Assembly (NCBI GenBank): GCA_021324175.1
Contig: JAJPJP010000053.1
Coordinates: 1 to 33,450 of the forward strand
Direction: 5' to 3'
Origin: Chitinophagia bacterium
GTDB taxonomy: Bacteria > Bacteroidota > Bacteroidia > Chitinophagales > Chitinophagaceae
Length of the DNA stretch: 33,450 nt
Shown here: in pieces, positions 410-32,789 of the stretch
How the letters are laid out: the number at the start of each line of letters is the position of its first letter
Numbering within the stretch: the first letter of the stretch is position 1
Made by a program: the position numbers and the translations under genes
Notes under the pieces: model-generated
Database searches by the model: none
What the model saw: the letters and a program-made list of their open reading frames with translations, nothing else
What the model was told of the DNA's origin: nothing

Positions 410-1225
410 ATGAAAGATCAACTTTCTGACGAACAAATTGCATCTTACCAGTCTAATGGTTTCGTGATAATCGAAGATTTTCTTTACTCCGAAGAGCTGG
501 CCAACTGGCGCGATGCTGTTATGCAGGCTGTTAAACAAAGAGCGGGCATCAAGATACCGGGCAAGAATATTTTAGTAGGCGGAGATGATGGTATTAACGA
601 GGATGCAGATTATTACGGGAAAGTCTTCGATCAGCTTCTAAACCTTTGGCAAACTGATTCTCAAATGAAAAGACTGATGACCGATCGGCGTATCGGCCGC
701 ATGGCTGCGCGACTGTCAGGCGCTGGGGGCATCAGGATCTGGCATGACCAGGCGTTGTTTAAAAGGCCCTGGGCAAATCCGACTGCGTGGCATCTTGATA
801 CGCCATTTTGGTCCTTTAGCGACAGGAAGGCCATTTCAATCTGGCTCGCGCTGGATGACGCCACGCTCGAGAATGGATGTTTATATTTCATTGCAGGTTC
901 CCAGAAGACTACCGGCTTTGATCGGATTGCCATCGGTAAAAATATGGACGGTATATTCGAAACTTATCCGCAATTGTTCAATTCAAAATCAGTTGCAGCT
1001 CCCATGCGGGCAGGCAGTTGTTCATTTCATAACGGTCTTACAGTGCATGGCGCGGGCGCCAACATGACGAACGGCTGGAGAAGAGCGATGACCTGCGCTT
1101 TCATGCCTGAAGGCAATAAATTCAACGGGGAGCCGAATATTCTTCCGGATTCCTACCTGAAAACCCTGAAGGTCGGCGACCTTTTAAACAACGACGAACA
1201 GAATCCGCTGATTTATGGCGACTGA
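410..1225 (+). CDS. Phytanoyl-CoA dioxygenase (PhyH) family Fe(II)/2-oxoglutarate oxygenase
   Basis: This 271-aa protein is predicted to be a cytoplasmic non-haem iron, 2-oxoglutarate-dependent oxygenase of the PhyH family. The iron-binding HxD is H128-L-D130 (within WHLDTPFW), the distal histidine is probably H213 in TVHGAG, and an arginine suited to bind 2-oxoglutarate follows at R224/R225. The segment around 143-166 (SIWLALDD, ENGCLYFIAGSQ) is typical of the family's beta-barrel. The ATG at 410 lies just downstream of a promoter-like element; a nearby ATG at 403 runs into a stop after a few codons. The substrate is unknown. Linkage to two glycoside hydrolases (27 bases to the next start) suggests a role in sugar or glycan-derived small-molecule metabolism rather than phytanate oxidation. 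The family call is secure; the pathway is inferred. Confidence 0.88.
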   Translation: MKDQLSDEQIASYQSNGFVIIEDFLYSEELANWRDAVMQAVKQRAGIKIPGKNILVGGDDGINEDADYYGKVFDQLLNLWQTDSQMKRLMTDRRIGRMAARLSGAGGIRIWHDQALFKRPWANPTAWHLDTPFWSFSDRKAISIWLALDDATLENGCLYFIAGSQKTTGFDRIAIGKNMDGIFETYPQLFNSKSVAAPMRAGSCSFHNGLTVHGAGANMTNGWRRAMTCAFMPEGNKFNGEPNILPDSYLKTLKVGDLLNNDEQNPLIYGD

Positions 1226-1252
1226 CGGACCGAAAATACTAAATGCATTGAT

Positions 1253-4075
1253 TTGAAAAGAAGAGAGTTCTTAATCCACGGAACCCTTGTAACCACGGGG
1301 CTCGGCCTGGGTGTTTCCGTTAAGGCATATAGCCAAACGAAAAACGCGCCCAAAGCAGAACTTTACACGCTTTTTAAAGATCCGCCGACGGCTTGTCGGC
1401 CATTTGTCCGCTGGTGGTGGAACGGTGATAAGGTTGAGAAAGACGAAATCCTTCGCGAACTTCAACTGTTGAAACAGTCGGGCATAGGGGGCATTGAGAT
1501 TAACCCTATACGCTTCCCTCTTCGCGCAAAAGACTTGGGAAAGCGATCCGTCAAATGGCTTAGTCCCGAATGGGTTGATCTATTGAATTATACACTCGAA
1601 CAGGCCAGCTCGCTTGGGTTGATCTGTGACCTGATTGTGGGATCGGGATGGCCGTTTGGAGCCGAATGGCTTGAGGGAAATGAACGCACTCAGATGGTTT
1701 CGATTGCAGTAAAGAAATTCGACAGCGCCGGCGATTACGAAGTTTCAGTATACGAATTGTTCCATGAAGCTGATCCAGGAGTTACTTCACCTTATTCAGG
1801 AAGGACAATGGAACTCGTTTCCTTATGGATCGTCCCCTCTCCGCTTGCTGATCTTGCCAGAGCAAAGGATATCACAAGCAGCGTGAATAACGGATCAGTG
1901 CGATTCAGGTTGGAAGATGGGGCGCATGTATTGTATGCCCTGGTTTCGATCAATGGGTTCATGGAAGTGATCAATGGCGCCCCAGGTGCCGACGGACCTG
2001 TTCTTAATCATTATAATGCCGACGCGGTCAGAAAATACTTGGAGAAGATGTCCGCTGCGATTGGGCCAATGTCAGGGAAGCTCCGCTCTTTCTTCACTGA
2101 CAGCATGGAACTGGAGGGTGCGAACTGGTGCCAAGACATGGCGAACGAATTCAAGCGGAGACGAGGATACGATCTCCTGCCTTATCTGCCTTTTGTATTG
2201 TTTAAGACGGGTGGGATGGGAAATGTTTTTGACGAGCATTATGGAGTTGAGACCGAGACTGACCTTAGGGAAAAGCTTTGTTGCGTACGTTACGACTTTG
2301 AAGTGACAAAAACAGAACTATTGCGCGAACGTTTTGTAGAGCCCTTCATAACATGGTGCAAAAGTCATGGCGTACTCTGCAGAATGCAGGCATACGGCAG
2401 AGGGTACCACCCGCTTGATGGAAGTTTTGGGGTTGATATCCCTGAATGCGAGACCTGGATAAAGGAAGGTCTTGGCGTTGCTATGGGGGACCTGGATTAT
2501 AGAGAAGGCCGAGCGTATTCGATGATCAACAAGTATGTAACATCGGCGGCTCATCTCGAAGGGAAAAGACTGATCAGTTGCGAGGAATTGACAAATACCG
2601 AACATGTCTTTACTGAAACGTTGGAGATCTTGAAGCTTGCTTCGGATCAGAGCACAATTTCTGGCGTGACACATGCCATATTTCATGGCTTCAATTACTC
2701 GCCAAAGGACGCGGAATTCCCGGGCTGGGTGCGATATGGAAGCTTTTTTAACGAGCGCAATCCCTGGTGGCCCTATTTGAAATTATTTACCGACTATAGA
2801 TCGCGGCTTGCAGCGCTGACACAGCAGGGCACCATGTTTGCGGATGTGGCCATTTTATCGCCAATCGCCGACATGTGGAGCATGTATGGCGCGCAAAACG
2901 AACCGTTCCCGACACGTGTTCATCCGTATTATCAAACATGTATTTGGGAGGCTATCCATAAAAACGGATCCGGCTGCGATTATTTGTCAGAAAAAGTGAT
3001 CCAGGATGCCGATACACAGGAAACGCAGTTTGCTTACAAGGGCAGAAAATATAAATTTCTACTGTTGATTGAAGTGGAAAGTCTTGAAATCGCAACGGCT
3101 AAAAAACTCCGCGATCTTGCGAATGCGGGAATCAGGATTTTTTGTATCGGAAAATACCCAAGCAAATCACCGGGCCTACGGGGGCACCAGCAAAATGACC
3201 AGCAGGTCGTGAATTTGATCGAGGGCTTGAAAAAAATGCCAAACCGTTTTATTTTGTTGCCAAAGCCTGAGAAGGATTTTGTTGGTTGGTTTAAAAAGAT
3301 TCAGGAAGATTACGAAATCGCGCCCTATGTGAAAATTGATCAGCCGGATCCATTCATCAATCAGGTGAGATATACCACAAGAGCTGAAGAAATCCTTTTC
3401 ATTATTAATTCCCACATCGACAAAGAATTCAAAGTTAGCCTCACCTTTGATAACAGCATGGTACGAAGGAAGCAGGCTTGGATTTGGGACGCCGAAATCG
3501 GCACGAGAGAAAAGTTGCCCTTAAGCAACAACAACCTGATACTCGACCTTGGGCCGGCGAGCTCCAGGATTTTAGTTTTTGATTCGACAAGAAGGGGAAG
3601 AATCCATGCTCCCCAGAATCCAGTTCCAAAAAAGCCCAGAGATGTGGGCAATTGGACTGCTGAGTGGCGACACATTGACGGGTCGGTTCGATTGAAGAGC
3701 ATGGATGTATTAAAAGACATCAAGGAAATTCCCGATTTCTCAGGGTTCTGCGGAACAGTAATTTATCGCGCCGACCTGGAATTGCGTCCGGGAGAAGCAT
3801 ACTCAACGCTAAGCCTTGGGAAAGTTTGGGGTGTTTCTGAGTTGGTAGTCAATGGAGTGCTTGCCGGCATTCAATGGTGGGGAAAAAGGGTATTTGATTT
3901 AAGAAAACTATTTCAGCCTGGTAAAAATACAATCGAAGTGAGGGTAGTAACGACTATGGGCAATTATCTCAAAACTTTAAAGGACAATCCCGTCGCGCAA
4001 TATTGGACTAATGAAAAAAGAAAGGACCAGCCAGTTCAGTCGATGGGGCTGATTGGACCGGTTCTCATATTTTAG
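1253..4075 (+). CDS. GH106-like glycoside hydrolase, Tat-exported (probable alpha-L-rhamnosidase type)
   Basis: The 940-aa product starts MKRREFLIHG, a twin-arginine motif followed by a hydrophobic stretch and an AYSQ cleavage-like site near residue 28, so export is likely. The body resembles Pfam Glyco_hydro_106: RPFVRWWWNGD at about 49, SGIGGIEI at about 76, FFTDSMELEGANW at about 280, ISCEELT at 441-447, GVTHAIFHGFNYSP at 471, then a WWPYLKLFTDYRSRLAALTQQG segment at about 505-526. The C-terminal 130 residues form a galactose-binding-like beta-sandwich (LGKVWGVSELVVNG, ending MGLIGPVLIF). E444/E445 is a candidate catalytic carboxylate, by analogy only. The start is TTG at 1253; the ATG at 1243 is out of frame and stops after two codons. 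Known GH106 enzymes release alpha-L-rhamnose from pectic glycans; the exact linkage here is unknown. Confidence 0.82.
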   Translation: MKRREFLIHGTLVTTGLGLGVSVKAYSQTKNAPKAELYTLFKDPPTACRPFVRWWWNGDKVEKDEILRELQLLKQSGIGGIEINPIRFPLRAKDLGKRSVKWLSPEWVDLLNYTLEQASSLGLICDLIVGSGWPFGAEWLEGNERTQMVSIAVKKFDSAGDYEVSVYELFHEADPGVTSPYSGRTMELVSLWIVPSPLADLARAKDITSSVNNGSVRFRLEDGAHVLYALVSINGFMEVINGAPGADGPVLNHYNADAVRKYLEKMSAAIGPMSGKLRSFFTDSMELEGANWCQDMANEFKRRRGYDLLPYLPFVLFKTGGMGNVFDEHYGVETETDLREKLCCVRYDFEVTKTELLRERFVEPFITWCKSHGVLCRMQAYGRGYHPLDGSFGVDIPECETWIKEGLGVAMGDLDYREGRAYSMINKYVTSAAHLEGKRLISCEELTNTEHVFTETLEILKLASDQSTISGVTHAIFHGFNYSPKDAEFPGWVRYGSFFNERNPWWPYLKLFTDYRSRLAALTQQGTMFADVAILSPIADMWSMYGAQNEPFPTRVHPYYQTCIWEAIHKNGSGCDYLSEKVIQDADTQETQFAYKGRKYKFLLLIEVESLEIATAKKLRDLANAGIRIFCIGKYPSKSPGLRGHQQNDQQVVNLIEGLKKMPNRFILLPKPEKDFVGWFKKIQEDYEIAPYVKIDQPDPFINQVRYTTRAEEILFIINSHIDKEFKVSLTFDNSMVRRKQAWIWDAEIGTREKLPLSNNNLILDLGPASSRILVFDSTRRGRIHAPQNPVPKKPRDVGNWTAEWRHIDGSVRLKSMDVLKDIKEIPDFSGFCGTVIYRADLELRPGEAYSTLSLGKVWGVSELVVNGVLAGIQWWGKRVFDLRKLFQPGKNTIEVRVVTTMGNYLKTLKDNPVAQYWTNEKRKDQPVQSMGLIGPVLIF

Positions 4076-4079
4076 CACT

Positions 4080-5537
4080 ATGTATCGCAAATTTAATGCG
4101 TTGTGGCCCCTGGTATTTTTGACATTACCAACAATGGCAAGAGATTTTCCTGCGTCTTTATTTGGTATTCGGTCGGACGGTATAACCCTGAATACGCGCT
4201 CAATACAGTTTGCCATCGATTATATCAGCAACAAAGGGGGAGGCAATCTGGTTTTCAGTGTTGGTCGATATCTGACGGGCTCGGTTCATTTGAAATCCGG
4301 CGTGGGGCTGGTTTTGAGTGAAGGGGCCGTCATGGTAGGATCGACAAATCCCCTGGACTACGATAAAGAGTTGTTTACTGCGCTGATCCTTGCCACAAAC
4401 CAACAAAAAATTTCAATCTCTGGTAATGGGATAATCGACGGAAGAGGGAGAGAGGTCGCCCAGAACCTTTTAGCCCTGATCCATGCGGGCATTGTGGAGG
4501 ATCCACTTAGGAATGATCGGCCTTCGGAATCGATCAGGCCAATGTTGATTGATTTTCGATCATGCCGGCAGGTCCGTCTCCGGAATGTTACTCTTCGGAA
4601 TGCGGCTTCCTGGGTTGAAACCTATGACCAATGCTCAGATGTCAGCCTGGATAGCATTACTGTTGACAGCAAAGCATACTGGAATAACGACGGTCTGGAT
4701 ATCGTGGATTGCGACAGCGTACACGTTAGTCACTGTTTTATTGATGCTGCTGACGATGGGATTTGCCTCAAGTCCCACGATCCCGCCAAACAATGCAACC
4801 AAGTCTGGATAGAACATAATGTTATCCGGTCGAGCGCGAGCGCAATCAAGCTTGGAACGGCATCATTGGGAGGATTTAGCCATATTCGCATAATCGACAA
4901 CAAGGTGTTCAACACCTATCGGTCAGCCATTGCGTTGGAAGCAGTTGATGGTGGTTTTATCGACGATGTTCTAGTCGATTCACTGCAGGCTGCCAAAATT
5001 GGCAATGCAATCTTCCTGCGCATCGGTGAACGAATACCTGGAAAGGAGGCAAGGCTGCACAACGTGCGAATTAAGAACGTATCAGTCGATATTCCTGCAG
5101 AAAAGCCGGATTCTGGTTATGATTACGAAGGGCCGGTCGAAGATCAGCCGCGAAATATTTCGCCTGCCGTTGTTATCACAGGACTACCCGGAAGTTTGAT
5201 CGATGATGTTACCTTTGAAAACGTCAATATTAAATCGCCCGGAGGCGGAAATGTCTTTCGGGCCAATTTGCCCCTGGGTGAAGTCGAGAAGGTGCCCGAT
5301 CGGCCGGAGGCATATCCCGAATTTTCGATGTTCGGAGAGCTTCCTGCATGGGGGATCTATATACGCCACGCAAGGAATATTCAAATGACCAACGTCACAC
5401 TTTCAGCTCAGGTTAAGGACTATCGGCCATCCATTGTGCTGGATGATGCCCATCATGCATCATTCCGAAACCTTTCGATTCGACCTAACGACCGGCCAAA
5501 AAAATGGTGGGCAAAAAACTCGACGGACATCAAATAA
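4080..5537 (+). CDS. GH28 family glycoside hydrolase (polygalacturonase-like), secreted
   Basis: I place the start at ATG 4080, four bases after the preceding stop. The frame also contains an upstream TTG at 4053 inside the previous gene, but the ATG gives a clean signal peptide (residues 1-20, ending LTLPTMA). The 485-aa protein is a right-handed beta-helix of the pectinase/GH28 type: DGITLNT near 33, ISGNGIIDGRG at about 113, NNDGLDIVDC at 202-211, AADDGICLKS at 223-232 and SAIKLGTAS at 254-262. D204, D225 and D226 fit the family's three catalytic aspartates. The usual GHG histidine motif is not evident; the matching region reads SSASAIKLG, as in divergent bacterial GH28 proteins, so a substrate other than plain polygalacturonan is likely. 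The 4-base spacing implies translational coupling with the GH106-like gene. Confidence 0.85.
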   Translation: MYRKFNALWPLVFLTLPTMARDFPASLFGIRSDGITLNTRSIQFAIDYISNKGGGNLVFSVGRYLTGSVHLKSGVGLVLSEGAVMVGSTNPLDYDKELFTALILATNQQKISISGNGIIDGRGREVAQNLLALIHAGIVEDPLRNDRPSESIRPMLIDFRSCRQVRLRNVTLRNAASWVETYDQCSDVSLDSITVDSKAYWNNDGLDIVDCDSVHVSHCFIDAADDGICLKSHDPAKQCNQVWIEHNVIRSSASAIKLGTASLGGFSHIRIIDNKVFNTYRSAIALEAVDGGFIDDVLVDSLQAAKIGNAIFLRIGERIPGKEARLHNVRIKNVSVDIPAEKPDSGYDYEGPVEDQPRNISPAVVITGLPGSLIDDVTFENVNIKSPGGGNVFRANLPLGEVEKVPDRPEAYPEFSMFGELPAWGIYIRHARNIQMTNVTLSAQVKDYRPSIVLDDAHHASFRNLSIRPNDRPKKWWAKNSTDIK

Positions 5538-6265: not shown

Positions 6266-7027
6266 ATGCTTACGGCAAAGCATCAAAAAAAATATATCAG
6301 GAAACTTGAAAGGGAGGCAATAGACCAACTGAAGGCTATCGCCCATTCCACTGACGAAGAAAGCATTCACCGGTTTAGGATCGCCATCAAAAAAATGAAG
6401 GCGCTTCAGTCGCTGTTAAAAGACTTCAAAAAGAAGAACTTCATCAGGCCGGTAAAAAAGGCCTTCAAGGCAACGGGTGGCGTTCGAGACATTGGCAATG
6501 CCAATGCAATTGAGCTAGATCATTTTAAACTTTCGACCAGGACAAGCCAGAAAAGAAAATCGGAATTTGAAGCGGAGTACCGCAAGCTTGCCCGGCACAT
6601 TTTGGAATACAAGCCGTGTTTTGCAAAGACAAAAAAGAAGTTTACCAGGCAGATCGGGGGAGTACACATGAAGATGCTGAAGAACCATTTCGGCAAAGAA
6701 CTGGCCAAGATTCCCAGGCTGATAGTAAGAAATGACATCGAAGCCATTCACGAATCACGGAAAAAACTTAAGAACCTTTTTTACCTGCATAATATGTTGC
6801 CCGAGCCGCTTCAAAGAAAATTGAATATCCGGATAAAGTATATCGACGACCTTCAGGACAAGATTGGCAAATGGCATGACCTGGTCCAAGCGGAGCCAAT
6901 GCTAAAGAAACGGATTGGAGAAAAGCAGTTGATTGTTATCAGAAGCGAAAAGCAAAGTTTTCTTGATGAGATCAGGAATATGACCTCGGGTTTCCGTTCC
7001 AAATCAGTTCAATACGCCGAGCAGTGA
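6266..7027 (+). CDS. CHAD domain-containing protein
   Basis: This 253-aa, strongly basic, all-helical protein carries the two signatures of the CHAD (conserved histidine alpha-helical) domain: IHRFRIAIKKMKAL at residues 34-47 with H35, and IHESRKKLKNLFYL at 161-174 with H162. Each sits at the start of one of the two four-helix halves. CHAD proteins bind inorganic polyphosphate through a basic groove, and the lysine/arginine richness here fits that role. There is no signal peptide and no fused CYTH (triphosphate tunnel metalloenzyme) domain, so it is a stand-alone cytoplasmic CHAD protein. The GNAT gene starts 40 bases downstream on the same strand and may be co-transcribed. No functional link between the two is evident. 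Confidence 0.85.
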   Translation: MLTAKHQKKYIRKLEREAIDQLKAIAHSTDEESIHRFRIAIKKMKALQSLLKDFKKKNFIRPVKKAFKATGGVRDIGNANAIELDHFKLSTRTSQKRKSEFEAEYRKLARHILEYKPCFAKTKKKFTRQIGGVHMKMLKNHFGKELAKIPRLIVRNDIEAIHESRKKLKNLFYLHNMLPEPLQRKLNIRIKYIDDLQDKIGKWHDLVQAEPMLKKRIGEKQLIVIRSEKQSFLDEIRNMTSGFRSKSVQYAEQ

Positions 7028-9310: not shown

Positions 9311-9676
9311 ATGGCAAAATCTGCAAAAAAAGCGGCCAAGAAGGCTGCAAAAAAAGCGCCGGCAAAAAAAGCTGTTAAAAAAGTTGCGAAAAAAGCTCCG
9401 AAAAAAGCGGCCCCTAAGAAAACAAAAAGAAAGCCCAATGAAGCTTTCATGAAACCAGTGACGCCTAGTGCGGCTCTTGCTGAGGTGATCGGTTCAAAGC
9501 CGATGCCGAGGACACAAATCATTAAATCCATTTGGGTCCATATCAAAAAGAACGGATTGCAGGATTCAAAGAACAGGAGGATGATCAATGCTGACGCCAA
9601 ATTGAAACCGGTGTTCGGCAAACCGCAGGTCTCCATGTTCGAATTGGCTAAGATCGTCAACAATCACGTAAAATAG
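9311..9676 (+). CDS. SWIB/MDM2 domain protein with histone H1-like lysine/alanine tail
   Basis: The 121-aa protein has two parts. Residues 1-42 are a low-complexity K/A/P tail built of AKKAAKKAP-like repeats, like eukaryotic histone H1 C-termini and bacterial H1-like proteins, and should bind nucleic acid non-specifically. Residues 47-121 are a SWIB domain: FMKPVTPSAALAEVIGS, MPRTQIIKSIWVHIKKNGLQD, NRRMINADAKLKPVFG and VSMFELAKIVNNHVK match the family along its full length. Bacterial SWIB proteins occur in Bacteroidota and Chlamydiae; a role in nucleoid or DNA-topology control is assumed but not established. The gene is isolated, with its own strong terminator. The lysine codons are nearly all AAA/AAG in A-runs. 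Confidence 0.9.
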   Translation: MAKSAKKAAKKAAKKAPAKKAVKKVAKKAPKKAAPKKTKRKPNEAFMKPVTPSAALAEVIGSKPMPRTQIIKSIWVHIKKNGLQDSKNRRMINADAKLKPVFGKPQVSMFELAKIVNNHVK

Positions 9677-22516: not shown

Positions 22517-22960
22517 TTAAGGAATTTCGTTTCCGGTTAGCCATAGCAATGAAATAGCATTGACGATTTCTACAAGTTTCGCGAAAGAATCCGGCTTTGT
22601 AATAAAGCAACTGGCGCCAAGCTGATAACAACTTGCTTTGTCCCGGGGAAGATTGGAAGTGGTTAATACGACGACCGGAACTTGGCTGAACTTGCTGTTT
22701 CCGCGTATTTCTTTTAACGCCTGAAGACCCGTCAGGCCGGGCATATTCAAATCAAGGAGGACAAGGAGTGGTAGCGGATGCTCCTTGTTATGCATTGCAG
22801 AAAGTAGTTTTTGGGCACTTTCAAAATAAACGCATGCATTCTCGCCTTGGCATTCTGAAAAAGCTTCCTTTATAATTTGCCTGTCATCAGCATCATCGTC
22901 GACGATAAAAACTTTTTTCTGATATTGCTTTTCCATAATTCCAACCTGTTGATTTGTCAC
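22517..22960 (-). CDS. Single-domain response regulator (CheY/Rcp1-like)
   Basis: This 147-aa protein is a lone receiver domain: acidic triad D21-D22-D23 (FIVDDDADD), phosphoacceptor D70 in LLDLNMPG, T100 in VVLTTSN and K122 in FITKPD. The long beta-alpha loop after the acidic cluster and the spacing resemble Rcp1-type regulators that serve phytochrome or multi-sensor kinases. An internal ATG gives a start at residue 9 (MEKQYQKKVFIVDDD), closer to the usual family length. It has no output domain. It is divergent to the poly-HAMP kinase operon, with 215 bases between the starts, which makes it a probable phosphotransfer partner of those kinases. Confidence 0.9.
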   Translation of the reverse strand: MTNQQVGIMEKQYQKKVFIVDDDADDRQIIKEAFSECQGENACVYFESAQKLLSAMHNKEHPLPLLVLLDLNMPGLTGLQALKEIRGNSKFSQVPVVVLTTSNLPRDKASCYQLGASCFITKPDSFAKLVEIVNAISLLWLTGNEIP

Positions 22961-23175: not shown

Positions 23176-26100
23176 ATGACGACCCAAAAAAGTGCCCCAA
23201 CACTTTCCAGGCCTCGCGTGGAAGCCAACCACAATGGCCAAAAGTCAAAAACTAAGCCATTTAAAAAGCCTGCGCGGACTCCCCACACTGAAGAACCAGA
23301 TGCCGAAGATTACCGGATCATCCTGGCAGTCCTCAGCGAAGTTAAGAAAGGGAATTTTACAGTCAGAATGCCCATTGACAAATTTGGAATCCAGGGCAAG
23401 GTGTACGATACGTTAAATGACATCATAGCCCTAAACGAACAAATGATGCTGGAATTTACCAGGGCGGGGAATATAATTGGGAAGGAGGGAAAATTAACGC
23501 AGCGCATTGAATCCCCCAGTGCCAAAGGTTCCTGGAGCACTGGCGTCGAATCGCTTAACTCACTCATCTCTGATCTGGTTCATCCTACCATAGAAATTGC
23601 TCATGTTATCAGCTCCGTGGCAAAAGGCAACCTTTCACAACAAATGCCACTGGAAATCGGCGGCCACACGCTTAAAGGAGAATTTGCGCGAATTGCAAAG
23701 GAAGTGAATGACATGGTTCGCCAGCTTAATTTGTTTTCTATGGAAGTTACGCGAGTCGCACGCGAAGTAGGTTCTGAAGGGAAACTTGGTGGGCAGGCCA
23801 AGGTTAAAGGAGTAGATGGTGTATGGAAAGACCTTACTGATTCTGTAAACCAGATGGGGAGCAACCTAACAGCGCAGGTACGCAATATCGCCGAAGTGAC
23901 GACGGCGGTAGCCAAAGGAGACTTATCGAAGAAAATTACTGTGGACGTAAAAGGCGAGATCCTTGAATTGAAGAATACGATCAATACGATGGTTGACCAG
24001 CTGAATTCGTTTTCATCCGAAGTGACGCGTGTTGCGCTGGAGGTTGGTACTGAAGGTAAGCTGGGCGGGCAAGCGCAGGTAAAGGGAGTCGCGGGAACCT
24101 GGAAAGATCTCACTGACTCAGTCAACCAAATGGCCAGCAACCTGACTGGCCAGGTGAGGAATATTGCTGAGGTGACAACGGCTGTTGCCAAGGGCGATCT
24201 TTCGCGACAAATTACAGTGGACGTGAAGGGCGAGATCCTCGAATTGAAGAATACGATCAATACGATGGTTGACCAACTGAACTCGTTTTCTTCGGAAGTT
24301 ACGCGTGTAGCCCGTGAAGTAGGATCGGAAGGAAAGCTTGGCGGCCAGGCGAAGGTGAAAGGAGTCGGCGGCGTGTGGAAGGATTTGACCGATTCGGTGA
24401 ATCAAATGGCAAGTAACCTGACAGGCCAGGTAAGAAATATTGCGGAAGTTACAACGGCGGTGGCCAAGGGCGATTTATCGAGAAAGATTACTGTAGACGT
24501 GAAGGGGGAAATTTCCGAGTTGAAAAATACCATCAATACGATGGTCGACCAGTTGAATTCGTTTTCGTCGGAAGTGACACGCGTGGCGCTTGAAGTCGGC
24601 ACAGAAGGAAAACTCGGCGGCCAGGCGCAGGTAAAGGGAGTCGCAGGGACCTGGAAAGATCTCACCGATTCTGTAAACCAGATGGCGAGCAACCTGACCG
24701 GCCAGGTGAGAAATATTGCAGAAGTTACGACGGCGGTCGCTAAGGGCGACTTGTCGAGAAAAATCACCGTGGATGTGAAGGGAGAAATTCTCGAGCTGAA
24801 AAATACGATCAACACGATGGTCGACCAGCTGAATTCTTTTGGATCAGAAGTTACCCGCGTCGCACGTGAAGTAGGTTCTGAAGGCAAACTTGGCGGCCAG
24901 GCTGATGTTCCGGGCGTGGGGGGAACCTGGAAAGATCTGACCGATTCCGTTAACAAGATGGCGTCAAACCTGACCTCGCAGGTGCGAAATATTGCGGAAG
25001 TAACAACGGCTGTGGCAACCGGCGATTTGTCAAGAAAAATCGACGTGGACGTGAAAGGCGAGATCCTTGAATTGAAGAATACGATCAATACCATGGTTGA
25101 CCAGTTGCGCGGCTTTGCTTCTGAAGTTACCCGCGTGGCGCGCGAAGTCGGCTCAGAAGGAAAATTGGGCGGCCAAGCTGCAGTGGAGGGAGTCGGTGGC
25201 GTTTGGAAAGACCTGACAGATTCAGTCAACGGTATGGCAAGTAACCTGACAGGCCAGGTAAGAAATATTGCGGAAGTCACAACCGCAGTGGCAAAAGGGG
25301 ACCTTTCCAGAAAAATCACAGTGGATGTTAAAGGAGAAATCCTCGAGCTGAAAAATACCATCAATACAATGGTGGATCAACTTAATTCATTTGGTTCAGA
25401 GGTAACCCGCGTTGCGCGTGAAGTAGGTTCAGAAGGCAAACTCGGCGGTCAGGCGGATGTGCCTGGCGTCGGGGGGACATGGAAGGATTTGACAGATTCC
25501 GTTAATAAAATGGCATCCAACCTGACATCCCAGGTGCGCAATATTGCTGAAGTAACGACAGCTGTTGCTAACGGCGATCTTTCTCGCAAGATTACGGTGG
25601 ATGTTCAAGGAGAAATCCTGGAACTAAAAAATACGATCAATACCATGGTCGACCAATTGCGCGGGTTCGCCTCTGAAGTCACTCGTGTAGCGCGTGAGGT
25701 TGGAACCGAGGGAAAATTGGGCGGCCAGGCCAATGTCCCGGGGGTTGCGGGAACATGGAAGGACCTGACGGACTCAGTGAACCAAATGGCCGGCAACCTG
25801 ACTGACCAGGTGCGTAATATTGCTGAGGTTGCTGTTGCAGTGGCCAATGGCGACATGTCGAAAAAGATTACGGTAGACGTGCGGGGCGAAATCCTCCAAT
25901 TGAAGGAAACCCTGAATACCATGGTGGACCAGCTCCGCGCTTTTGCCTCTGAGGTCACACGCGTGGCAAGAGAAGTAGGAACGGACGGAAAACTCGGCGG
26001 CCAGGCGTTTGTCCCTGGCGTGGCGGGAACATGGAAAGATTTGACCGATTCAGTCAACCAGATGACCGGTAACCTTACAGCCCAGGTGCGCAATATTGCT

Positions 26101-29100
26101 GAGGTGACAAAAGCAGTAGCGAGCGGTGACCTTTCCAAGACGGTGGCTATTGACGTAAAGGGCGAGATTCTGGATCTCAAAAACACCATCAATACGATGG
26201 TGGAACAATTGAACTCCTTCGCTTTTGAAGTTACCCGTGTAGCACGTGAAGTCGGAACGGAAGGTAAACTCGGCGGCCAGGCCGAAGTGCGCGGCGTAGC
26301 CGGGACATGGAAGGACCTTACAGATTCGGTCAATATGATGGCATCAAACCTTACCAATCAGGTTCGCAATATTGCGAAAGTGGTAACAGCCGTTGCAACC
26401 GGGAATCTTAAGCAAAAGCTTGCCATTGTTTCGCGCGGGGAGGTTGCGCAATTGATCGACACCATTAATGAAATGATTGATACGCTCGCTCTCTTTGCAG
26501 ACCAGGTAACTACAGTTGCTCGCGAGGTTGGTGTGGACGGAAGGCTAGGAGGCCAAGCGAGTGTTCCCGGCGCTTCGGGCATTTGGAAGAACCTGACGGA
26601 TAATGTAAACCAGCTCGCGCAAAATCTTACCACGCAGGTACGATCGATCTCCGAAGTGGCTTCAGCAGTTACCAAAGGCGACCTTACTCGAACGATTCGC
26701 GTGGAGGCCAAAGGAGAAGTAGAAGCCTTGAAGGACACGATTAACCAGATGATTGCAAACCTTAAAGAGACGACCCTCCGAAACCAGGAACAGGATTGGT
26801 TAAAATCCAACCTGGCAAAATTTACGCAAATGCTGCAGGGGCAGAAGGATCTCAAGACTGTAACGCAGCGGATTCTTTCCGAGCTTGCTCAGGTGGTAAT
26901 GGCGCATTACGGAGCATTCTACGTGTTGCGACAGGACGAAGAAACGCAAAAGGTTACCCTCAGCCTTTTCTCCGCATATGGCTATAAATCCGAAAAAAAT
27001 ATTCCGACGGAATTTGCCATTGGCGAAGGCCTCGTTGGCCAGGTGGCTTTCGAGAAGGAACGTATAATATTGTCCAATGTGCCAGGTAACTATATTAAAA
27101 TCAATTCGGGTCTCGGAAGGTCCAAGCCTGCGAACCTTATTATCCTCCCTGTCTTATTTGAAAATGAAGTAAAGGCTGTTATTGAGCTTGCTTCCCTGGA
27201 CATGTTCAGCCAGACACACCTTAATTTCCTTGGCCAGCTCACAGAAAGCATCGGAATAGTTCTCAATACGATCGAAGCTAACACGAGGACTGAAGAACTG
27301 CTGACCCAGTCTCAATCTCTCGCAGGCGAGCTAAAAATTCAACAGGAGGAACTGAGGAGGACTAATGACGAGCTTCAGGATAAAGCGCTTTTGCTTGTCA
27401 AACAAAAAAATGAAGTAGAGGCGAAGAACAAGGAAGTGGAAGAAGCAAGACGATCGCTGGAAGAAAAAGCCGAACAGCTCACACTAACCTCCAAATATAA
27501 ATCTGAGTTCCTGGCAAATATGTCTCATGAGTTGCGTACGCCCTTGAACAGTCTCCTGATCCTTGCCCAGCAACTGTATGAAAACGCGGAAGGCAATCTC
27601 AACGATAAGCAAATCCGTTATGCAAAAACTATTCACTCTTGCGGGGACGATTTAATCCAACTGATCAATGATATCCTGGATCTTTCAAAGATCGAGTCCG
27701 GATTTATAACTGCCAATATTGCGCCGGTAAGATTTGGTGAGATTGCATCCTTTGTCGAAACGACTTTCAAGCCGATTTCGGAGGCCCGGCATTTGCGATT
27801 CACTATTGATACGGATCCGAATTTGCCAGAAACAATGTCGACCGATCTTCAGAGGCTTAACCAGATTTTGAAGAACCTGCTATCGAACTCCTTCAAGTTT
27901 ACGGAAAAAGGCGAAGTCAGGCTGAAGATTTACGAAGCCCGCAAGAACTGGAAACAGGGCGTTTCGTCCCTTGATAATGCCGGACGTGTGGTGGCTTTTG
28001 CCATCAGTGATACTGGAATTGGTATACCAAAAGAAAAACAGAACATCATTTTCGAGGCCTTCCAGCAGGCAGAAGGATCCACAAGCCGAAAATATGGCGG
28101 CACCGGACTAGGACTTTCAATAAGCCGGGGCCTGGCGGAATTGCTTGGCGGAAACATCGAACTTGAAAGTTATCCCTCAGAAGGAAGTACGTTTACGCTT
28201 TTCCTTCCGGTAGAAAGCCCCACCGGTACAATCACAAAAGAGACCAAAGAAAACCTTAGCGCCTACCAACAACTGCAACTGGGTGATGGCGCCGGCTCAA
28301 TTGACAATTTGTTGAATTCACTGCGTGACACGGACGCAGAAAATTTAAATCTTGTCAATGAAATGATCAATGAGACTGGGGACGACCGGGCCCGCATCCA
28401 ACAATCCGATAAAACGGTTCTAATAGTCGAGGATGATTTGCGTTTCGGGAAGATCCTGATTGAGCGTGCGCATGACCTGAGTCTCAAAGCCGTTGTGGCG
28501 ACAACATATGTGGAGGTTTTTGATTTTATAAACCGGTTTAACCCGATTGCAATTACGCTTGATGTAAAACTTCCAGACACCAGTGGCTGGAAGGTCCTCG
28601 ACCTGCTGCGCAACGACCTGAATTTCCGACATATCCCGATTCATCTCATATCGGGTGAAGAAAACAGAGATTTGGCAATCAGGCGTGGAGCGCGTAGCTT
28701 CCTGCTAAAACCTTTGGAAAATGAAGCGTTGAAAGAGTTGTTCGAGGATATAGTTAACCATCATGAGAAGATCGTAAAAAAGGTACTCGTCGTAGAGGAC
28801 AATGAAATGGACTCTTCCCAAATTGTCAAAATCCTGGGTAACGGAATCATGGAAGTCACAATCGCCGAAACAGGCGAAAGCGCACTAAACAAGAACGACC
28901 TGGCCGAATACGACTGTATTATTCTCGACTATACGTTGCCCGACATCTCTGGCCTGGACCTTTTGGAAAGAGTTTCACGCGCCAAAAGGAAAAATACGCC
29001 GGTCATAATTTATTCAGCTAAAGACTTTAATAAAAAGGAGATGCAACAGATCGCGCGCGCGACCAATTCTGTACTGCTCAAAAGTGCGAATTCCCTGGAA

Positions 29101-29580
29101 AACCTTTTGGAAGAAACAATTCTTCAGCTTCACATCAATCATAAGGACCTGACTCCAGAAAAAAAGAGGCTGATCGAAAACACGCGACTTAAGAATGATA
29201 TCTTGACGGGTAAGAATATTCTCGTAGTGGATGATGACGTTCGAAATCTTTTTGCGTTGACAACGGTCTTTGAACGATACAATATTAATGTGATCACGGC
29301 CGAAAGTGGCAAAGACGCGATTACCATCATTAACGATGAGAAACAGCGAGTGGACATGGTACTCATGGACATCATGATGCCCGAAATGGATGGCTATGAA
29401 ACAACGCAGAAGATCAGGAGAGAACATAAGAACAATGCGCTTCCCATAATTGCCGTTACTGCTAAAGCTATGAAAGGCGACCGCTTAAAATGCATTGAAG
29501 CAGGAGCGTCCGATTATATTACAAAACCGTTAAAAATAGACCAACTTCTCTCGCTTATGAGGATGTGGTTTTACAAATAA
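23176..29580 (+). CDS. Giant poly-HAMP / GAF hybrid histidine kinase with three receiver domains
   Basis: The 2134-aa protein has no signal peptide or transmembrane helix, so it should be cytoplasmic. Order: a polar basic N-terminus (1-44); a HAMP array (about 45-1203) of two divergent leading units and 11 near-identical 92-residue units, each pairing a REVGxEGKLGGQ and a [10 protein letters not shown] type HAMP; GAF (about 1225-1368); coiled coil (about 1370-1440). Then come HisKA with H1451 (NMSHELRTP), HATPase_c (N-box near 1566, [16 protein letters not shown], end about 1680) and three receivers with D1796, D1918 and D2065. The third receiver is the most canonical ([14 protein letters not shown]); the second has K followed by S rather than P. 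The layout recalls fungal group III (Nik1/Os-1) osmosensing kinases. It heads a four-gene operon with gaps of 34, 39 and 16 bases. Confidence 0.93.
23743..26778 (+). repeat. Eleven tandem 276-bp HAMP-pair repeats
   Basis: Units begin at 23743 + 276k for k = 0 to 10, taking the codon for the first residue of (E/Q)VT-x-VA as the boundary (checked at 23743, 24019, 25123 and 26503). The register has no insertion or deletion over 3036 bp. Amino-acid identity between units is very high through unit 8 and falls in the last units (26227 onward). Many codon differences are synonymous, so the repeats are old and held by selection rather than freshly copied. Confidence 0.9.
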
Positions 29581-29614: not shown

Positions 29615-30877
29615 ATGCAACCGAAGATTCTTTTGGTGGATGACCGGGATGACAACCTGCTTTCTCTGGAGACGATCCTGGAGAAAGACGGCTATCAGTT
29701 TGTAAAAGCGAATTCCGGCAAACAGGTTTTGAAGATTTTGCTCCATGAATTCGATTTTGCACTCATCCTGATGGATGTACAGATGCCTGTTATCAACGGC
29801 TTTGAAACCGCTAGGATGATTTACTCGAGAGAGAAACTAAGGCACATTCCGATCATATTCATAACTGCAAACAATTTCGGAGAAGACAACGTTTTCAAAG
29901 GGTACGAAGCGGGTGCTGTGGATTACATCAACAAGCCAATAAATGCGGATATTTTGAGGGCTAAAGTGTCAGTCTTTGCCGAGCTCTATCGCAAAAACCG
30001 GCAACTAATTGCACAAGAACAAAAGCTTGTGGGAATCAACAAGAACCTCGAAATGGAAATCAACGAGCGCAAGGCCTCGGAAGAGAAAGTGAGTATGCTG
30101 AATATAAAGCTCCTGGAGAATATCGCTCTGCTTGAATCCGCTAATAAGGACCTCGATCTATTCGTCCTAATGGCTTCACACGATCTCCAGGCTCCATTGA
30201 GAAAAATTCGTATGTTTAGTGATTTGCTGACAAACCACAGCGATGGTATTGGTGAGGCAGAGAAGGGATATATAAGCCGGATCGGTCGCGTTTCTAAACA
30301 AATGCAGGATTTGATCAATGATCTTCTCGAATTCTGCAAAATTTCCGGAGAAAATGATCCCGCGGAGTTGGTAGACCCGAATATCGTCCTCAAGGAAATT
30401 ATTTTTGAGCTTGACGAGATTATTAGAGAAAAAGATGCCAGGATTGTATTGGACAAACTGCCGATGCTGTTCATAAACCCGGTACTTATCCGGCCTTTGT
30501 TTTTCAATTTGCTCAGCAATTCGTTAAAATACAGCAGGAAAGGCATTCAGCCCGTTATTCGCGTTTACTGGGAAGGCAGCAATGAAAAAACTGATAGGAA
30601 GCCCCGGGCGGAAACATTGCAATATTGTAGGCTTTATATTCAGGATAACGGGATCGGGTTTGAGCAAAAATACGCCGAAGAAGTTTTTGATATGTTTAGA
30701 CGGCTGCATCCCAAGTCAGAGTTTGAAGGTACCGGGATCGGCCTTGCGCTTTGCAAAAAAATAGCTGAAAAGAATGACGGGCACATTTATGCCCGCAGCC
30801 GTGTGGGCGAAGGAACGACGATTATCATTTCACTACCAATGGATCGTGTAAAGGAATTGCAAGCCGAGGTGGTTTGA
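29615..30877 (+). CDS. Response regulator-histidine kinase (REC-HisKA-HATPase)
   Basis: The 420-aa cytoplasmic protein starts with a receiver domain (ILLVDDRDD at 5-13, phosphoacceptor D54 in LILMDVQMP, ITANN, K108 in YINKPI). A long coiled coil follows (about 120-182), then a HisKA domain with H189 in MASHDLQAPLRKI and a HATPase_c domain (FFNLLSNSLKYS, QDNGIGF, EGTGIGLAL). The H-D variant of the H-box is that of the phytochrome-like/cyanobacterial HisKA group. An N-terminal receiver means the kinase is itself controlled by phosphorylation, so it can relay a signal from the upstream hybrid kinase. It starts 34 bases after that gene, in the same operon. Confidence 0.92.
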   Translation: MQPKILLVDDRDDNLLSLETILEKDGYQFVKANSGKQVLKILLHEFDFALILMDVQMPVINGFETARMIYSREKLRHIPIIFITANNFGEDNVFKGYEAGAVDYINKPINADILRAKVSVFAELYRKNRQLIAQEQKLVGINKNLEMEINERKASEEKVSMLNIKLLENIALLESANKDLDLFVLMASHDLQAPLRKIRMFSDLLTNHSDGIGEAEKGYISRIGRVSKQMQDLINDLLEFCKISGENDPAELVDPNIVLKEIIFELDEIIREKDARIVLDKLPMLFINPVLIRPLFFNLLSNSLKYSRKGIQPVIRVYWEGSNEKTDRKPRAETLQYCRLYIQDNGIGFEQKYAEEVFDMFRRLHPKSEFEGTGIGLALCKKIAEKNDGHIYARSRVGEGTTIIISLPMDRVKELQAEVV

Positions 30878-30916: not shown

Positions 30917-32404
30917 ATGGCGACCATCAACCAGGCTTTATACAAGCGAAAACCCGATGTCGTGGTTAAGCCAATAAAAATTATGGTTATCGACGATGAT
31001 GAAGATGATTTTTTGCTGATTAGCGGTTTTATTAATCATATTCAGGGACGCTCATTTCTGATTGACTGGTGTTATGAGCACGATGCGGCATTGAGGGACA
31101 TGCGAGAACATGGGCATGATCTTTATTTTGTCGATTATAAGCTTGGTGCTAAAACCGGGCTCGACATTTTGAAGGAGGCGGTGGCCGCTGATTGCCATCA
31201 GCCTATCGTCATGCTCACGGGCATGGGCAGCCGTAAGCTGGATATTGAAGCCATGGAGGCGGGAGCTACTGATTATCTCGTAAAATCCGAGCTTGCCACC
31301 GACAAACTGGAGAGATCGATACGATATGCAATCGACCGCTCGAATTCGCTCAAATCCCTGCGGGAAAGTGAAAAAAAGTATCGTGCGATTTTCGAAAAAT
31401 CAAAGGATGCTGTCTTTATCGCCGATGGAAAGTTTTTTTTCAAAGAGGTTAATCCTGCACTAACCGATCTCCTTGGATACGGATCCAAACAAATAGTTCG
31501 CCTGTCTATTTTTGACATGATCGCTGACGAAAGCAAGAAGATTCTGATAACGAGACTTTTATCTGAAAATGGTGAAGTTCATGATCTTACGCTCGAGTTG
31601 GCAGCCAAAGGCGGCGACAGAATTCATTGTCTCCTTTCCGCATCATTGCTGACTGACGGCCAGGCGGTGCCCTATATTCAGGGAATAATTCATGATATTA
31701 CCGACCTCAAAAAAGCGGAGAGGGCTCACTTACAGTCTGAAAAGTTGAAATCAGCAAACAGACTATTGCGGATCCTTGCGCATGAAGTAAGAAACCCGCT
31801 TACCAATATCAATATTGCCATGGATATGATGGAATCGGAATTTTCCACCGATGGCGGACGGCAATATTTGGACATTGTTCGACGCAGCAGTCGCCGGATC
31901 AACGAACTGGTCTCTGAACTGTTGGATTCCTCCCGCCAGAAAGAATTGATATTTGAAAATATTGCGCTTCGCCAGATTATTGAGCAGACTTTGGAGATGG
32001 CATCTGACCGGATCGCCCTTAAAAATATCCAGGTTCTGGCTACTTTTCCAAAGGAAGATTCGATAGTCAAGGTTGATCCGGTCAAGATAAAAATAGCACT
32101 GCTTAATATAATTATCAACGCGATCGAAGCCATTTCTCACGAACAAGGTAAGCTACAGGTTCGGGTTGAGCAATCGAAGAGCGGGTATGATATTTTTATC
32201 GAAGACAATGGCTGCGGCATCAGCGAAAAAAATATGTCCAGGCTTTTCGAACCTTTTTTCACTTCGAAGAAAAACGGCCTGGGTCTTGGTTTAGCCTCAT
32301 CGTTGGCTATCCTGCAATCCCATGAAATGAATGTCGACGTCAAGTCAAGACTTGGAAAGGGAACGTCCTTTGTTATCAACGTTCCAAAAAAGGAATCGGC
32401 CTGA
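30917..32404 (+). CDS. Response regulator-PAS-histidine kinase (REC-PAS-HisKA-HATPase)
   Basis: The 495-aa protein has a 20-residue basic leader, then a receiver domain (IMVIDDDEDD at 22-31, D73 in YFVDYKLG, T101 in VMLTGMG, K123 in DYLVKSE). A PAS domain follows at about 152-268 (SEKKYRAIFEKSKDAVFIAD, ending IIHDITDLKKAE), then a HisKA domain with H289 (ILAHEVRNPLTN) and HATPase_c (LLNIIINAIEA, EDNGCGI, GLGLGLASSL). The H-E-V-R-N-P-L box is that of NtrB-like kinases. There is no membrane segment; any PAS ligand or cofactor is not evident. The gene lies 39 bases after the REC-kinase gene and 16 bases before the single REC gene. Confidence 0.92.
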   Translation: MATINQALYKRKPDVVVKPIKIMVIDDDEDDFLLISGFINHIQGRSFLIDWCYEHDAALRDMREHGHDLYFVDYKLGAKTGLDILKEAVAADCHQPIVMLTGMGSRKLDIEAMEAGATDYLVKSELATDKLERSIRYAIDRSNSLKSLRESEKKYRAIFEKSKDAVFIADGKFFFKEVNPALTDLLGYGSKQIVRLSIFDMIADESKKILITRLLSENGEVHDLTLELAAKGGDRIHCLLSASLLTDGQAVPYIQGIIHDITDLKKAERAHLQSEKLKSANRLLRILAHEVRNPLTNINIAMDMMESEFSTDGGRQYLDIVRRSSRRINELVSELLDSSRQKELIFENIALRQIIEQTLEMASDRIALKNIQVLATFPKEDSIVKVDPVKIKIALLNIIINAIEAISHEQGKLQVRVEQSKSGYDIFIEDNGCGISEKNMSRLFEPFFTSKKNGLGLGLASSLAILQSHEMNVDVKSRLGKGTSFVINVPKKESA

Positions 32405-32420
32405 TGTAAAAAATCCAATT

Positions 32421-32789
32421 ATGAAAAAATCAGCGGCAATCAAGAAAATTCTGGTTTGCGATGATGATCCCGATATCCTGGAACTGGTCGCTTTGATGCT
32501 TCGGTCCAACGGGTACTATACAGTATGCGAGTTAAACAGCCCAGATATCTATAAGAAGATCGATGAGGAAAACCCGGATGCTATCGTTCTTGACCTCTGG
32601 ATGCCAATTCTTTCTGGTGAAAAAATAATTAAAGTATTGAAAAGGGATCAGAAGACGAAACACATTCCCATCATCGTCATTTCCGCAAGTAACGACGGAA
32701 AGGAGATTGCCGAAAGGGCGGGCGCAGACGATTTTATCGGAAAGCCTTTCGATATTGATACGTTGCTGCGGGTAGTCAACAAGAATTGA
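32421..32789 (+). CDS. Single-domain response regulator (CheY-like)
   Basis: From ATG 32421 the product is 122 aa, a bare receiver domain: ILVCDDDPD at 10-18, phosphoacceptor D58 in IVLDLWMP, S in IIVISASND and K in FIGKPFD. The frame is open upstream into the preceding kinase gene, but that extension is a shadow. It closes the four-gene kinase operon and is its only free receiver, so it is the likely final acceptor of the relay, acting by protein-protein contact since it has no output domain. Confidence 0.9.
   Translation: MKKSAAIKKILVCDDDPDILELVALMLRSNGYYTVCELNSPDIYKKIDEENPDAIVLDLWMPILSGEKIIKVLKRDQKTKHIPIIVISASNDGKEIAERAGADDFIGKPFDIDTLLRVVNKN

Follow-up and report, generated by a model that had tools for sequence, protein, structure and literature searches.

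A soluble histidine kinase carrying a long chain of HAMP domains is an architecture already in print, for OsaA of Streptomyces, for Amb07, AskA and AskB of the myxobacteria and for Nik1 of fungi. Here we analyse a gene of this layout in a 33,450-nucleotide stretch of DNA from a Chitinophagia bacterium of the Bacteroidota (assembly GCA_021324175.1, contig JAJPJP010000053.1, positions 1 to 33,450, forward strand), which as a whole is called the window below. The gene encodes a poly-HAMP hybrid kinase of 2134 amino acids (aa), and a receiver gene adjoins it. What does the long HAMP array do, and with which protein does the kinase work?

According to the published description (PMC9739842), OsaA is a large hybrid kinase that is soluble, lacks a membrane helix and carries more than ten HAMPs; OsaB, whose gene stands beside osaA (SCO5748/SCO5749 in S. 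coelicolor), combines a receiver with a coiled coil. Under high osmolality Streptomyces osaB mutants fail and osaA mutants are mildly delayed (PMC10117811). AskA, AskB and Amb07 are reported to have an extended N-terminal poly-HAMP part, a kinase and several receivers, with no membrane region (PMC7643160); the length of the poly-HAMP tract changed between two myxobacteria (MXAN_6735/LILAB_12790, PMC4603909). The group III kinases (Nik1/Os-1, CaNik1, TcsC, Bos1), which have been called fungal-specific (PMC11253588), are cytosolic, carry several HAMPs at the N-terminus, often more than five, and serve osmostress signalling and HAMP-dependent control in the HOG pathway, with an osmotic or fungicide response that runs via an HPt protein. 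Among them CaNik1 has nine HAMPs, as 92-aa pairs plus one single HAMP, and it signals constitutively when all HAMPs are deleted (PMC3848655). Finally, Aer2 of Pseudomonas aeruginosa is a soluble receptor in which five concatenated, divergent HAMPs are arranged around a haem PAS domain with a chemoreceptor output, and the conformers of its HAMP1 and HAMP2 send opposite signals (PMC3570549).

Results

Architecture of the kinase

The kinase frame is open from its ATG and contains the following features.

23176..29580, + strand: the kinase, a poly-HAMP hybrid histidine kinase of 2134 aa (open frame, Pfam domains)
23176..23307, + strand: N-terminal polar tail, aa 1-44, probably disordered
23308..23718, + strand: divergent N-terminal HAMPs in the order B-A-B, aa 45-181, boundaries approximate (homology to PDB 9trk/9trj; unit 1 of a hidden Markov model, HMM)
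23719..26754, + strand: eleven exact 92-aa A-B HAMP pairs, aa 182-1193 (spacing, 276-bp tandem repeat, HMM, DNA divergence)
26755..26844, + strand: conserved junction helix with QDWLK, from the last B to the GAF domain (motif in 8/8 sequences inspected)
26845..27264, + strand: GAF domain, aa 1224-1363 (GAF_2, 7.7e-18)
27499..27702, + strand: HisKA, aa 1442-1509, with His1451 in SHELRTPLN (Pfam, motif)
27844..28215, + strand: HATPase_c, aa 1557-1680, ATP-site motifs present (Pfam, motif)
28411..28761, + strand: receiver 1 (REC1), approximate, Asp1796 and Lys present (Response_reg, motif positions)
28777..29130, + strand: receiver 2 (REC2), approximate, Asp1918 and Lys present (Response_reg, motif positions)
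29218..29556, + strand: receiver 3 (REC3), aa 2015-2127, Asp2065 (Response_reg, motif positions)

The order is thus a short tail, B-A-B HAMPs, eleven A-B pairs, GAF, HisKA/HATPase and three receivers, with Pfam matches to HAMP (3.4e-118), HAMP_2 (1e-105), GAF_2, HisKA, HATPase_c and three Response_reg stretches. We take His1451 to be the phosphoacceptor and Asp1796, Asp1918 and Asp2065 to be phosphosites, and presume the usual role for the ATP-site motifs. An original prediction, made from the letters of the window, had proposed this frame and domain order, a HAMP array making up more than half of the protein and a plan like that of Nik1/Os-1. It was right on each of them, the array spanning about aa 46-1193, or about 54% of the kinase. 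Its claim that there is no membrane helix agrees with hydropathy, the one method applied: no transmembrane segment was found, and the top 19-residue Kyte-Doolittle mean is 1.48, within the GAF domain. A membrane anchor or a polar-to-apolar N-terminus was ruled out by hydropathy alone; the N-terminus is polar in the scan, with no dedicated signal-peptide prediction behind it. Besides the HAMP array, GAF is the sole other sensor domain in the Pfam scan. Neither a PAS-haem domain nor a chemoreceptor signalling domain is among the Pfam hits, which sets the kinase apart from receptors of the Aer2 type.

Two candidate contacts with DNA were rejected. A basic tail binding the nucleoid, as for FrzCD or nuclear TcsC, fails since tail charge is not conserved: with start codons taken mechanically, the net charge is at least +3 in 17/73 sequences and at most -3 in 14/73. 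For SpoIIID/HTH as a DNA-binding domain, the total of 66 bits is treated as the added contributions of the repeats, since no stretch passes on its own. This whole-protein score for PF12116 SpoIIID is a possible parallel to the partial SpoIIID/HTH matches reported for AskA/AskB.

Composition of the HAMP array

The spacing between the eleven consecutive units is exactly 92 aa in 10/10 gaps, and the array DNA is a 276-bp tandem repeat. Each unit is one type A HAMP plus one type B HAMP. The unit HMM picks 12 units, the twelfth being the divergent, N-terminal one. A lone first B, called from its motif and from the alignment of a B-A-B stretch to 9trk, precedes them and makes the array B(AB)x12, or 25 HAMPs. 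This first B has no Pfam family match at E <= 10 and is also missed by the B HMM; among the three N-terminal HAMPs only the second B touches Pfam HAMP, at 24.2 bits, just below the cut-off of 25. A middle type B unit, taken in isolation, matches Pfam HAMP (PF00672) at 44.8 bits against the same cut-off (E 1.6e-11).

Is type A then a HAMP? We call it one because of the helix pattern in an AlphaFold2 model, a weak profile match to the Aer2 structure 3vol, homology to 9trk and the assignment of the 92-aa repeat of CaNik1 as a HAMP pair (PMC3848655). The N-terminal HAMPs are homologous to 9trk/9trj ('histidine kinase, Gcn4p'; E 4e-120), which hold the GCN4-fused N-terminal HAMPs of a homologue and so offer a comparison, by sequence, for the first HAMPs only; among the relatives compared, L064 is closest to 9trk, at 78% identity. 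The unit profile reaches 3vol at 1e-4, over the whole of B and the last part of A. Structure prediction of two consecutive units, a check set out in the original prediction, gave a helix-connector-helix pattern in both A and B with helices continuous across the joints, but the AlphaFold2 monomer has a pLDDT of 56, and because of this low confidence it is used for the helix pattern alone. Foldseek with this model returned nothing at E <= 0.001; the top structures, again of Aer2, were 4i3m/4i44 (prob 0.89, E 0.14). On predicted topology and these homologies, type A appears to be HAMP-like. The profiles of types A and B gave no full-length alignment (prob 3.2), so their common descent is not demonstrated by sequence.

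The alternation of A and B is clean in 67/70 complete arrays, and the 3/70 flagged ones (L058, L079, L087) are explained by weak or overlapping hits. It therefore seems that an array gains or loses complete pairs.

Conservation is highest in the middle array units

Which part of the kinase is kept best? The relatives compared are the best 80 of 587 confirmed ones, a set that favours long arrays with common motifs and holds several close kin (e.g. Bradyrhizobium). Over the 69 complete relatives, median identity to the window is 83% for the middle array units (524 units), scored against the mean of nine window units. The other domains, scored against the aligned position, give 77% for the last unit, 75% for HisKA, 65% for the coil, 63% for HATPase, 59% for REC3, 55% for GAF with the junction, 39% for REC1 and 34% for REC2. 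When the domains of this kinase are compared with each other, the middle array units are its most conserved part, above the catalytic core.

Conservation also shows position by position. In a set of 629 middle units, drawn from 80 loci, a single residue accounts for at least 95% at 55 of the 92 unit positions, 20 of which are polar: Q2, E9, T11, R12, E16, Q26, K37, D38, T40, N44, T51, Q53, R55, N56, D68, S70, E80, K85, T87 and N89. The 629 are those of exactly 92 aa out of 685 found by the HMM, counted without the opening unit and the two closing units of each array. A mere relay of helix motion would need its core kept, not so much polar sequence; this is an argument and not a proof, and the comparison is confined to this family. 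The repeats are, it would seem, under stricter conservation than a plain signal lever calls for, and this conservation pattern of the array is under-explored.

The numbers bear on a rival explanation: the array might be a passive spacer or lever whose HAMPs do no more than hold the dimer together and tune the gain, all sensing being left to GAF. GAF is indeed placed between the array and the kinase. Moreover, the complete relatives have anywhere from 9 to 15 units, which gives the impression that an exact length is of little importance. However, GAF with its junction falls well below the middle units in identity (55% vs 83%), and a mere spacer would have no need to fix 20 polar positions at 95% or more. 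We consider this explanation unlikely. The commonest class has 12 units (32/69), as does the array of the window. A count of 7 in L084 is doubtful, as its frame begins inside the array.

Age of the array

Repeats so similar in protein might have arisen by recent tandem expansion, or by an error of assembly, and have no functional meaning. Such a process is visible in relatives: the array DNA of L067 and L017 has recently been homogenised. The window array is different. Its eleven units share a mean pairwise identity of 78% in protein and 69% in DNA, the lowest within-array DNA identity among the 80 arrays compared. Since the two most alike units are only 82% identical in DNA, a miscount of repeats in the assembly is unlikely. 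Synonymous codon mismatch among the units is 0.595, close to 0.652, the value that a random choice of codons within this gene would give. Because synonymous sites are near-saturated, the units must be old and kept alike by selection at the protein level; these data show an array of old units held by purifying selection.

Comparison between loci gives the same picture. L009, L014 and L015 carry 12 units each by HMM, as the window does, and a window unit is most like, or tied with, the same-position unit of these loci in 26/33 comparisons (10, 8 and 8 of 11). This correspondence, ties counted, also speaks against a passive spacer. On synonymous divergence, recent duplication or assembly artefact was rejected for the window array, and we find it scarcely credible.

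A receiver gene travels with the kinase

The kinase is surrounded by other two-component genes.

29615..30877, + strand: the partner, 420 aa, with an OsaB-like receiver (Asp54), a linker, HisKA (His189) and HATPase_c (Pfam, motif positions)
30917..32404, + strand: REC-PAS-HisKA-HATPase kinase, 495 aa (Pfam)
32331..32789, + strand: single receiver protein, a 152-aa frame; a start at the inner Met, 32421, would remove the overlap
22517..22960, - strand: divergently transcribed single receiver, 147 aa, upstream

The partner starts 34 bp past the kinase stop, and the 495-aa REC-PAS kinase probably shares a transcript with the genes upstream of it. Is any of these neighbours conserved with the kinase? 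Among the 58 relatives with full flanks, 52 have, on the same strand and within 3.5 kb, a receiver at least 40% identical to that of the partner (48 downstream, 4 upstream). The count was 37/58 in a first pass with a frame cut-off and became 52/58 after tblastn, the threshold of at least 40% being set afterwards. By record titles, the partner-linked loci belong to Bacteroidota, Pseudomonadota, Acidobacteriota, Cyanobacteria, Myxococcota, Verrucomicrobiota, Gemmatimonadota, Fibrobacterota, Bacillota and Actinomycetota; some are metagenome-assembled genomes.

As controls, the other receivers of the neighbourhood were searched for near the kinase in the same way and reached at least 40% identity in only 0-1/58 relatives: 1/58 for the receiver of the 495-aa kinase, 1/58 for the single receiver at 32331..32789 and 0/58 for the divergent receiver at 22517..22960, which has a weaker match (E <= 1e-12) in 11/58. 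They were therefore dropped as conserved partners. REC3 of the kinase, which resembles the partner receiver, is the exception with 9/58. At the position of 22517..22960, a divergent receiver of 26-31% identity is present in some Chitinophaga-like loci.

The pairing was also examined in 395 sampled genomes of the phylum. Nine of them carry the kinase, the window genome included, and in 9/9 the partner receiver adjoins it on the same strand; at most six candidates were scored per genome, so that 9/395 may be low, and adjacency was read by eye. At the family level, the N-terminal part of the kinase is found in 32/147 genomes. In the window genome, the second-best match of the partner receiver is REC3 (39%), and two other receivers reach 41% over shorter stretches with weaker E-values; the same genome (88% complete) has one Hpt match. 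A literature search for OsaB with HAMP gave one paper, and in further searches, which covered mostly titles and starts of abstracts and few subscription journals, no paper was recognised as describing the cross-phylum pairing of kinase and partner.

Some details of these loci are worth recording. In examples read by eye, the partner receiver is kept while the rest of the protein varies, being a kinase in which PAS/GAF and a second receiver may or may not be present. The partner of the Streptomyces relative L087 is a receiver with a helical tail only, 296 aa. G295, G223, G487 and G370 have frames of 812-824 aa with a partner-like receiver (52-54%) and no poly-HAMP kinase detected. In G035, of the same genus as the window, contig C23 carries the kinase as two frames of 703 and 1363 aa, by a broken frame or an assembly error.

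Discussion

Relation to the known systems

Which of the described systems is this? With OsaA/OsaB the window locus shares a soluble hybrid kinase of more than ten HAMPs and an adjoining gene with an OsaB-like receiver. The likeness rests on published description and on L087, a 1836-aa Streptomyces frame with the same units next to a REC protein whose receiver is 59-60% identical to that of the partner. L087 is taken as OsaA because of its size, layout and genus, and its partner resembles the published OsaB (PMC9739842). The osmotic role has been shown in Streptomyces only. With the fungal kinases the window kinase shares several N-terminal HAMPs, as 92-aa pairs plus a single one, the absence of a transmembrane segment (by hydropathy) and the HisKA/HATPase/REC phosphosites; likened by description, CaNik1 has 4 pairs + 1 and the window 12 pairs + 1. 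GAF, present in the window kinase, is not named in the published descriptions of the fungal ones. The window is bacterial and the nearest named relatives among the matches listed are Bacteroidota, so we speak of a 'type' rather than of fungal group III. Ask/Amb07 have in common with it, again by description, the poly-HAMP part, the kinase, the receivers and the lack of a membrane region; the difference is that AskA and AskB serve Myxococcus development and the ambruticin response. Aer2 is alike in its chain of divergent HAMPs in a soluble receptor, but it has a haem PAS and a chemoreceptor output and no kinase. Taken together, the window kinase is probably a bacterial kinase of the OsaA kind, that is a Nik1-type ('group III') soluble hybrid kinase paired with an OsaB-like receiver. 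The original prediction of far more units than in Nik1 stands against the published fungal counts, but not as a novelty, since OsaA with more than ten HAMPs and poly-HAMP Amb07/AskA/AskB had already been described.

Proposed mechanism

Then how may such a kinase work? We lean towards a cytosolic stress phosphorelay of the OsaA/OsaB type with the HAMP rod as its input, the stress probably being osmotic. Two kinase chains would form a parallel dimer, its HAMPs stacking end to end as one unbroken helical rod. A and B HAMPs may prefer opposite packings, a model supported for Aer2 (PMC3570549); each 92-aa pair would therefore be one neutral step that keeps the register facing the kinase. The equilibrium of the rod might shift with the state of the cytoplasm, be it solute, water activity or crowding. 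Osmotic stress is the first choice because of OsaB in Streptomyces (PMC10117811) and Nik1 in fungi. GAF would perhaps bias the equilibrium, the shift would switch the kinase/phosphatase activity of His1451, and phosphate would pass via the kinase receivers to the partner receiver, which would control the partner kinase. The original idea that the array itself is the sensor fits with GAF as the sole other sensor domain, with the best-conserved middle units and with the constitutive signalling described for HAMP-less CaNik1.

Several observations pull the other way. Isolated type A, one middle and one N-terminal, matches no Pfam family at E <= 10, so of the two alternating HAMP-like types originally proposed, B matches Pfam HAMP and A does not. 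The dimeric rod is based on homology, given the low quality of the AlphaFold2 monomer, and the N-terminal HAMPs are poorly kept, with a median identity to the window of 44%. The window partner, unlike OsaB as described, adds HisKA and HATPase_c to its receiver. The pairing is not exclusive, because no partner is found nearby in 6/58 loci (L018, L022, L024, L027, L062 and L079; in L022 a partner-like receiver lies about 6 kb from the kinase) and because 32/395 genomes have a partner-like receiver with no kinase detected. Nor is this receiver type confined to the kinase, since further receivers with 40-50% identity to it stand away from the kinase in several of twelve other genomes. Even where tested, osmosensing by such kinases is weakly supported, deletion of osaA having a minor osmotic effect (PMC10117811), and AskA/AskB act in development (PMC7643160). 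GAF could also be the real sensor.

The recurring polar positions allow two further explanations. One is that the array is a multivalent scaffold, whose near-identical unit surfaces bind the same partner, such as another rod, a receiver, DNA or an envelope protein; the kinase would then build a cytosolic signalling cluster, and sensing would lie in the assembly. Hyperconserved polar positions in every unit are what such a scaffold would have. In addition, the three Ask kinases bind one another pairwise in vitro, and promoter DNA is bound by AskB in vitro and by AskA in pull-downs only (PMC7643160); HAMPs are also reported to modulate clusters of the cytosolic receptor FrzCD (PMC12077210). On the other hand, the DNA-binding idea comes partly from the partial SpoIIID/HTH overlaps, which in the window kinase are only the sum over repeats described above, and a basic tail to hold DNA is not conserved. 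The polar positions may instead serve packing within the bundle. We know of no binding partner of such an array, and hold the scaffold as a possibility of the second rank.

The other explanation, equally tentative, is that the HAMP rod acts as a recognition surface repeated along its length and does not serve as a relay. The roughly 20 near-invariant polar residues of each pair could form about ten near-equal sites along the dimer rod, which might be engaged by lateral neighbours, by ions or water, or by a universal cytosolic ligand. The kinase would sense the number of engaged sites, and the strict pairing would keep the HAMP phase.

Other genes in the window

Away from the kinase, a phytanoyl-CoA-dioxygenase-like gene, a GH106 rhamnosidase gene and a GH28 gene stand in a row at 410-5537 (+), presumably a pectin/rhamnogalacturonan unit. 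A stand-alone CHAD-domain protein at 6266-7027 (+) is one we suppose to be possibly polyphosphate-binding. The SWIB/MDM2-domain protein at 9311-9676 (+) has an N-terminal tail that is rich in lysine and alanine, resembles histone H1 and is encoded by a short tandem repeat.

Conclusions

Across phyla it is the middle of the array, rather than the catalytic core, that is best conserved in this kinase family, and this offers some 20 fixed polar positions in each unit as targets for mutation. The receiver gene that travels with the kinase names its likely phosphotransfer target. The analysis also suggests that one 92-aa unit lies behind OsaA/OsaB of Streptomyces, the Ask kinases of myxobacteria and Nik1 of fungi. 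If the array is a recognition surface that works with an OsaB-like partner, the two would make up a widespread cytosolic sensing system of bacteria.

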